A stretch of 45,797 bases of DNA from Candidatus Methanovirga aequatorialis. Its GTDB lineage: Archaea; Methanobacteriota; Methanobacteria; Methanobacteriales; Methanobacteriaceae. Under the pieces are notes generated by a model. It made no database searches. It had not been told where the DNA came from and worked only from the letters and a program-made list of their open reading frames with translations. Location: assembly GCA_031282205.1 (NCBI GenBank), contig JAITEE010000051.1, positions 1 to 45,797 on the forward strand. Direction: 5' to 3'. Positions 749 through 27,682 of this stretch are shown here, piece after piece. The first letter of the stretch is position 1. Each line of letters begins with the position of its first letter. Made by a program: the position numbers and the translations under genes.

Positions 749-952
749 GTGAATGAAGATATATTGATTCATGAGTATCTCATGACACAAAAGTTCATAT
801 ACTTCTTGAAAAAATATGTAGAAAAGCCTAAAATGTCGAAAAAGTATGAAAAAGCCAATAAAAAGAAACTTGGAGAAATATTAGAAATAGTTTATAAAGA
901 ACTTTTAAAGCCATTAGAAAGCATATTTAAAGAAGAAAATAGAATATATTAG
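749..952 (+). CDS. Short open frame, uncertain gene
   Basis: The frame opens with GTG and could encode 67 residues rich in lysine and glutamate (YLKK, KKYEKANKKK, PLESIFKEEN), probably helical. It begins a few bases from the start of the decayed minus-strand gene and ends inside the transposase remnant. It has no good Shine-Dalgarno sequence and no motif I recognise. It may be a gene fragment or chance coding in AT-rich decayed DNA. Confidence 0.2.
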   Translation: MNEDILIHEYLMTQKFIYFLKKYVEKPKMSKKYEKANKKKLGEILEIVYKELLKPLESIFKEENRIY

Positions 953-1273
953 TCATATTAGATAATTATCCTGTTCATCATGGGATAACTTTGAAAAAAT
1001 CTTGTAAATATCTTAATATAACTCTTATACATTTACCCCCATATTCTCCTAAATTAAGTCCCATTGAACAGGTTTGGAGAACTATAAAAAGAGAATTATC
1101 CTCAGAATTTATTGTAAATGAAAAATTCTTAATAGAAAATTTTGAAAAATTATTTTATGAAAAAATTGATAAAAAATCGTATACAGAACAATGGATTTGA
1201 TAAATTTATAATTGATAAAAATAACGATTTATTAATTGCTGATATGTGTGAATGTGCAGAGTTACTAGTGTAA
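943..1273 (+). pseudogene. IS630-family transposase, C-terminal remnant
   Basis: The translation holds LDNYPVHHG followed by LIHLPPYSPKLSPIEQVW, the standard C-terminal signature of IS630/Tc1-type DDE transposases (the D of LDN and the E of PIE are catalytic). The first frame stops at 1200. Reading continues one base out of frame as DKFIIDKNNDLLIADM to a stop at 1271-1273, so one base appears inserted near 1199. The N-terminal half and the first catalytic Asp are absent, so this cannot be an active transposase. Confidence 0.8.
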
Positions 1274-3020: not shown

Positions 3021-3132
3021 TCCTATCCTATCAAAGATAAACGATATTTTTTTGATAATTTGTACTATGATTTATTTAGATTACAAAAATATATTTATGG
3101 TAAACTATAAATTTATTTTATTACATGCTTTT

Positions 3133-3324
3133 AACTAAAGTTTGCAAGAGATCAAATTAATTAGCTTTCATGAAAATTATCCATTTAAGATTTTATAAAC
3201 TAAAATAGCTATTTTAATAAAATTTATAAATAAATAGCTATTTAATAAAATAAAGTGATATTAAATGGCTGTTTTAAAAAAATTAAAATATTTTCAAAGT
3301 TCAAAACTTGCAAAAACTTAACTT
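3133..3324. repeat. Element A, short copy with terminal inverted repeats
   Basis: The ends are AACTAAAGTTTGCAAG (3133-3148) and CTTGCAAAAACTTAACTT (3307-3324), which are inverted relative to each other. Inside are two AATAGCTATT palindromes around an AT-rich spacer. The same sequence in reverse orientation forms the outer frame of 27200-27647. This copy lacks the two inserts found there, so it serves as the unoccupied site. It lies between pan and the MATE gene in a 600-base gene-free stretch; the remainder (3325-3600) shows nothing else I can name. Confidence 0.75.
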
Positions 3325-3621
3325 TCATGCCTGTAGTTATAAAAATATTAATCCTCATTTAATAATAGTGTTATCTCTTATTTATAACTATCATATACAA
3401 CGTCCAATTAATTTATTATCATTACCATCAACTAATCATAGTTAAGTTGTATTTCTGATAATATTTAAGTCTTTTGTTTATCCAAACGACGATATTTAAA
3501 TCCAAGTTTTTAAATTTTCAAGAAAACTTTATTGAAGTATGTCAAATCGTGCAAATTCCTTAACATCTAACTATTTTAATAAGTAATTAAATATCAATTT
3601 TTTCAATATAGAGGTGACCTA

Positions 3622-27055: not shown

Positions 27056-27245
27056 AAAAACACCAACTTCAACATCTTCAACTGAAGTTCATGAAATAAT
27101 TTTTTTTGATTTTCGTTTCTAATTGAACGAGTTCAACAAGGAAGTAATGAAATTTTTTAAATTTTTATTATTGATCATTAAATTAATTTGTAGGTATGAA
27201 AGTTAAGTTTGCAAGTTTTGAACGTTAAAAAATATTTCAATTTTT

Positions 27246-27344
27246 GAGGGTGTAAAAAAGTGTGGAGTTTTTCATAAAAATCAGCATTTACTTATAAAGA
27301 AAATGTGAAAAATTGAAAAAACTCCACAAAATTTTACAGTCTCC
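27246..27344. mobile_element. Element B, 99-bp insert inside element A
   Basis: The ends GTGTAAAAAAGTGTGGAGTT and (right end reversed) CTGTAAAATTTTGTGGAGTT form an imperfect inverted repeat of nearly 30 bp. AATTTTT stands on both sides (27239-27245 and 27345-27351), while the matching place in the short copy near 3283 has this sequence only once. That is the pattern of an insertion with a 7-bp target duplication. It has no coding capacity. Confidence 0.65.
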
Positions 27345-27422
27345 AATTTTTTTAAAACAACCATTTAATGTTAGTTTGTTTTATTAAATAACTATTTATT
27401 TATAAATATTTTGTTAAAATAG

Positions 27423-27564
27423 TGTCATGACAATTTAATTTTAAATGTTTATATGGTTGAAGTTACATGATAATAAATAGTAAAATAAGCTGGAATTTCA
27501 CAAAATAAAACACATATGAAAATATTATGTTCGAATTAAACAATAAGAATTAAGTTGTCTTAAC
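27423..27564. mobile_element. Element C, 142-bp insert inside element A
   Basis: The left end TGTCATGACAATTTAATT and right end AATTAAGTTGTCTTAAC are imperfectly inverted (about 13 of 17). AAATAG stands on both sides (27417-27422 and 27565-27570). The short copy of element A lacks this block. Evidence is weaker than for element B because the direct repeat is also part of A's own AT-rich palindromes. Confidence 0.5.
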
Positions 27565-27682
27565 AAATAGCTATTTTAATTTATAAAATATTGAATGGAT
27601 AATTTTCATGAAAGTTAAAATAATTCAATATCTTGCAAACTTTAGTTAAAATCCTATAAAATGAATGTGGATGGAATCAAAA

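Follow-up and report, generated by a model that had tools for sequence, protein, structure and literature searches.

Short, multi-copy, non-autonomous elements that are mobilised in trans by resident insertion sequences (IS) have been described in archaea, among them the MITEs SM1-SM4 of Sulfolobus (PMC10969869). In the passages of that review that deal with such elements, 25-44 copies are given per genome, a number comparable to that of the Methanovirga families described below, although parents and host differ; the same passages mention no MITEs from Methanobrevibacter-type methanogens, and the review nowhere uses the term 'nested' (PMC10969869).

The window considered here, that is, the whole stretch of DNA that was analysed, is 45,797 bp long at 29% G+C, and is contig 146 of a 1.98-Mb assembly of 215 contigs. 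It includes genes for an archaeal proteasome-type ATPase, an archaeosine-type tRNA transglycosylase and a phosphopantothenate synthetase; gene content and repeat distribution together place the host in Candidatus Methanovirga. Members of this genus are termite-gut methanogens that live inside gut flagellates, and the arthropod intestinal Methanobacteriota at large have a low coding density and numerous pseudogenes (PMC13135261).

An intergenic stretch of the window is occupied by a nest of three elements, A, B and C. The locus is an instance of a known phenomenon, nested MITEs: the example is clean, and the families are new. Very probably three non-autonomous MITEs are layered here: A arrived first, and B (with an 8-bp target duplication) and C (with an NTAN duplication) were inserted into it, both as IS derivatives. 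Copies, ends, target duplications, empty sites and parent-type elements are found in the same genome, and two of the three layers, B and C, have identified parent-type elements.

The nest and its empty site

The interrupted copy of A differs from an uninterrupted copy elsewhere in the window by two extra blocks, each with inverted ends and each flanked by direct repeats (Table 1). The sequence-only reading had recognized both inserts and the uninterrupted copy, and had taken at least the first insert for a real transposition with its empty site preserved; this holds for both. It had also proposed a formal alignment and a search of the genome for element ends and transposases. The reverse complement of 3122-3335 aligns to 27181-27670 as one unit, in which the short copy has two large gaps; once both blocks are set aside, together with one copy of each duplication, the two A copies agree at 172 of 190 aligned bases. 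The genome search returned A, B and C as multi-copy families, with ISM1-like and IS630 elements for the ends of B and C. A search of the congeners for the orthologous site found one flanking gene in three of them and the other in one; the intervening stretch is not syntenic.

Table 1. Positions of the nested elements, their target duplications and the empty site in the window
Feature	Position	Strand	Basis or remark
Element A, interrupted	27189..27658	+	inverted ends 27189-27215 and 27632-27658; alignment to 3122-3335
Interrupted A, pieces	27189-27245, 27352-27422, 27566-27658	+	B, C and the right copy of the B duplication excluded
Element A, uninterrupted; empty site for B and C	3122..3335	-	alignment to the interrupted copy
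Element B, 98-bp MITE, ends GAGGGTGTAAAAAAGTGTGGAGTTTTT / GAGACTGTAAAATTTTGTGGAGTTTTT	27246..27343	+	genome copies; ends match the ISM1-like IS of the same genome
B target duplication, left copy CAATTTTT	27238..27245	+	flank comparison
B target duplication, right copy CAATTTTT	27344..27351	+	flank comparison
Element C, 143-bp MITE, IS630-type ends TGTCATGACAATTTAATT / TGTTAAGACAACTTAATT	27423..27565	+	about 12 good copies; ends common to IS630/DDE_3 elements
C target duplication, left copy ATAG (NTAN type)	27419..27422	+	family comparison
C target duplication, right copy ATAG	27567..27570	+	one extra A (27566) between it and the C end

Several boundaries shifted on closer comparison. The uninterrupted A, first placed at 3133-3324, is indeed there but extends further, to about the limits given in the table. 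The first block had been described as 99 bp between copies of AATTTTT; the insert is real, but it measures 98 bp and its duplication is the 8-bp CAATTTTT. A C/T mismatch with the empty copy had led to the 7-bp reading; duplications in the B family are 8 bp long. For the second block, read as 142 bp between copies of AAATAG, the string does stand on both sides, but the length is 143 bp and the family target is 4-bp NTAN. Exact 4-bp NTAN duplications flank 11 of 14 pairs of C-type ends, where random re-pairing gives 2.1 on average; AAATAG is therefore unlikely to be a genuine 6-bp duplication and is read as ATAG with one extra A at the right junction.

The window has exactly two occurrences of the end motif GAGRSTGTAAA, where 0.09 would be expected. 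This count, and the tens of unrelated B sites that have duplications of their own, exclude chance for B.

Element B and its ISM1-like relatives

Element B has no coding capacity, and its 30-nt arms are 80% complementary. Its own genome gave 46 matches; 40 candidates were scored, here as in each search, so that the copy numbers of A, B and C in this genome are lower bounds. Several B copies are 99% identical to that in the window. Among 28 copies whose flanks were scanned, the 8-bp duplication is exact in 16 and agrees at 7 of 8 positions in one more; when the flanks were re-paired (2000 trials), copies at 7/8 or better averaged 1.06 and never exceeded 5. Ten of the 11 copies that lack a duplication sit inside a larger repeat, D, where the junction is not B's own target; free-standing copies have 8-bp duplications in 17 of 18 cases (16 exact, one 7/8).

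Repeat D is a 58-bp inverted-repeat element (ATGCTGTCAAG...CTTGACAGCAT), always with CA...TG flanks. It is found alone at L231 286-343 and L084 2924-2982 (58-59 bp); where B lies within it, the inserted part has TTTGTATT on either side. The composite of D and B (about 176-181 bp) recurs at about a dozen sites (L012, L014, L016, L019, L020, L023, L024, L029 and L030 among them), as if the nested pair had been amplified as a unit.

When about 85,000 prokaryote genomes were scanned with a pattern for B's longer end, 65 stretches were found, all of them in Methanovirga procula, M. australis, M. basalitermitum and Methanobrevibacter cuticularis. In these congeners and M. cuticularis, exact 8/8 duplications flank 13 of 18 paired B ends. 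Copies are abundant in the congeners and form species-specific clusters; in one genome (G038), for example, about 20 are all 83% identical to the copy in the window.

From its ends, B is best read as an internally deleted derivative (MITE) of the ISM1-like IS of its own genome, an element of roughly 1.4 kb (about 1.43-1.47 kb; C163 416-1841, and L186 918-2390 on C25). The left 27 bp of B are those of the IS left end (27/27), and the right 22 bp match the IS right end at 95%; the left (AAAAAAGTGTGGAG) and right (AAAGTTTTGTGGAG) versions of the IS end stay distinct in B, and it is the match to both of these that points to internal deletion. The transposition of B, as first proposed, is borne out by an empty site, a matching duplication, some 40 further copies (most with their own duplication) and a parent IS with the same ends. 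As B keeps only the two end sequences to which a transposase would bind, the ISM1-like transposase could move it in trans.

What is known of this transposase comes from several genomes. Many contigs of M. basalitermitum continue from the B end into a longer element, not into a short hairpin. In M. procula, one copy (L086) codes for the N-terminal portion of a transposase, which has a zinc-ribbon-like motif. Of 60 genomes of the family, 30 contain homologues, and the genome of the window has them in at least eight places. An intact relative of 401 aa (in G009) is 65% identical to a C-terminal fragment from the window's genome (C116), and 32% identical over 397 aa (E 9e-57) to the transposase of an element in G021. 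The latter element is 1381 bp long, with 29 identical bases at its two ends, about 10 copies and a 401-aa transposase; at L196 782-2162 it has the exact 8-bp duplication CCAAAAAT on both sides. It is a candidate for ISM1 of Methanobrevibacter smithii, which its copy number and ends would fit. ISM1 is classed in the ISM1 group of ISNCY. The Methanovirga parent is like this element in ends that start GAGnnTGTAAAA, in 8-bp duplications and in a transposase of about 400 aa with the N-terminal zinc-ribbon-like motif; it differs in its greater length and in its end sequence, which departs after the first dozen bases. B differs in turn as a 98-bp deletion derivative with no gene.

Two other families were considered for the mobiliser. 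IS256 was the first guess, from the GAG ends and the 8-bp duplication; it was rejected, as the window's genome has no match to PF00872 (Transposase_mut). Membership in IS66 was rejected at 51 bits against the NCBIfam cut-off of 180. One of three proteins just exceeds the cut-off of the Pfam model DDE_Tnp_IS66, and on such scores the ISM1-like transposase ranks as a distant IS66 relative only.

Two minor observations concern the long element. Many M. basalitermitum contigs (JAISZW010000...; L091, L098, L112, L118 and others) end about 97-120 bp inside it, so that ISM1-like repeats limit the k=119 assembly. In the window's own genome, one B copy (L181 310-416, on C163; duplication GATTTTAT) directly abuts the end of a copy of the ISM1-like parent IS.

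Elements A and C and the IS630 family

About a dozen good copies of C are present in the genome. The ends of C (TGTYAWGACAAYTTAATT) likewise delimit elements that encode a DDE_3 transposase (PF13358): they surround DDE_3 in a 1171-bp element of G020 (L205 220-1390), and an IS630 element of 1168 bp in the window's own genome (C43, 2633-3800) has GTAT on both sides. To judge by these ends, C is a MITE of an IS630-family element (Tc1/mariner superfamily): it lacks the gene, and NTAN/TA targets are common to both. Its origin would parallel that of B from its IS, and IS630 transposases could cross-mobilise it.

Element A, of about 200-215 bp, is non-coding and has inverted ends of about 27 bp (TATAGGCATGAAAGTTAAGTTTGCAAG). 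At least 20 copies are present in the genome. The ends, TATAGGC...GCCTATA, resemble those of the IS630-type elements of the genus (TATAG...), and TA flanks most copies, though TA may belong to the end itself; A, too, is probably an IS630/Tc1-type MITE that landed in TA. A parent with A's own ends was not found: the IS630 loci of the genus have TATAG-type ends, none of which match A. The genome has 32 occurrences of the A ends and five congeners have none, so that A was either amplified after the lineage separated or lost elsewhere.

Nesting is common in this genome. The A copy on contig 154 (C154, L080) has a B insert of its own, at another site and with the duplication TTATTTTA, and two other A copies have taken up a further element, E (131 bp, TATAGTGATAATGG...); both junctions are readable in one of these, and they are compatible with a TA duplication. 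As with A, no parent with the same ends as E was found. In all, four other A copies are broken by further repeats (L080 on C154, L079 on C178, L239 on C25 and L240 on C190): B in C154, and E or E-like sequence in C154, C178, C25 and C190.

Alternatives, order and age

A different way to understand B and C is to regard them as elements with a regulatory or RNA function (REP-, ERIC- or riboswitch-like) that spread under selection, transposition being incidental. B lies between genes, and its single-strand fold is very stable (z = -7.7); yet such a fold is what two inverted transposon ends give, C folds no better than shuffled sequences, there is no Rfam match, and the congeners have species-specific clusters of copies of their own. 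This explanation is very unlikely. Smaller still is the chance that the nest came from a single event or from repeat recombination (gene conversion, template switching) in place of two transpositions. The genome is repeat-rich and AT-rich, and the right junction of C is imperfect, but each insert has the termini and the duplication type of its family, and each insert family has its own parent-type IS.

The least probable of these explanations makes the long form the original and 3122-3335, with the other short copies, its deletion derivatives, an outcome that the sequence-only reading had itself set against its own account. Precise deletion could in principle occur between the flanking direct repeats; none of the results favours it. 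Neither block is present in at least eight full-length A copies, B and C are widespread outside A, at many unrelated sites and each time with different duplications, and other A copies carry B or E elsewhere in the element. The long form as ancestor is thus already refuted by the many independent sites.

Under the preferred account, of three successive MITEs, A would have landed first, probably by means of an IS630/Tc1-type transposase; B and C would have entered it later, their order relative to each other being left unranked. Median pairwise identity is 0.90 for A, 0.92 for B (with copies up to 100% alike) and 0.98 for C, and the low value for A is consistent with its being the oldest layer.

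What the near-identical copies speak for is recent mobility, not present activity. The active machinery in trans that had been proposed from the nest itself is borne out only in part: the genome has transposases of the matching families, but each copy encountered is disrupted or truncated at the end of a contig. The absence of an intact ISM1-like or IS630 transposase from the window's own assembly (stops, frameshifts and contig-end cuts account for the copies seen) is to be read with the assembly's fragmentation at exactly these repeats.

A broader proposal has about an even chance of being right: that A, B, C, the composite of D and B, and E stem from ISM1-like and IS630-type elements in recent, species-specific bursts in protist-associated Methanovirga, with B-in-D amplified as a unit, and that they may still move and drive genome erosion. 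MITE bursts would then be a concrete, testable contributor to low coding density and pseudogenes. A specialist in mobile elements will find little surprise here; the gain is that short repeats of an uncultured, protist-associated methanogen genus are tied to known transposon families, and that the nest offers layered insertions that can be ordered. The window itself also holds, at 901-1110 (+) and thus some 2 kb away from the uninterrupted A, what remains of a transposase gene of IS630 type (DDE_3), which contains stops.
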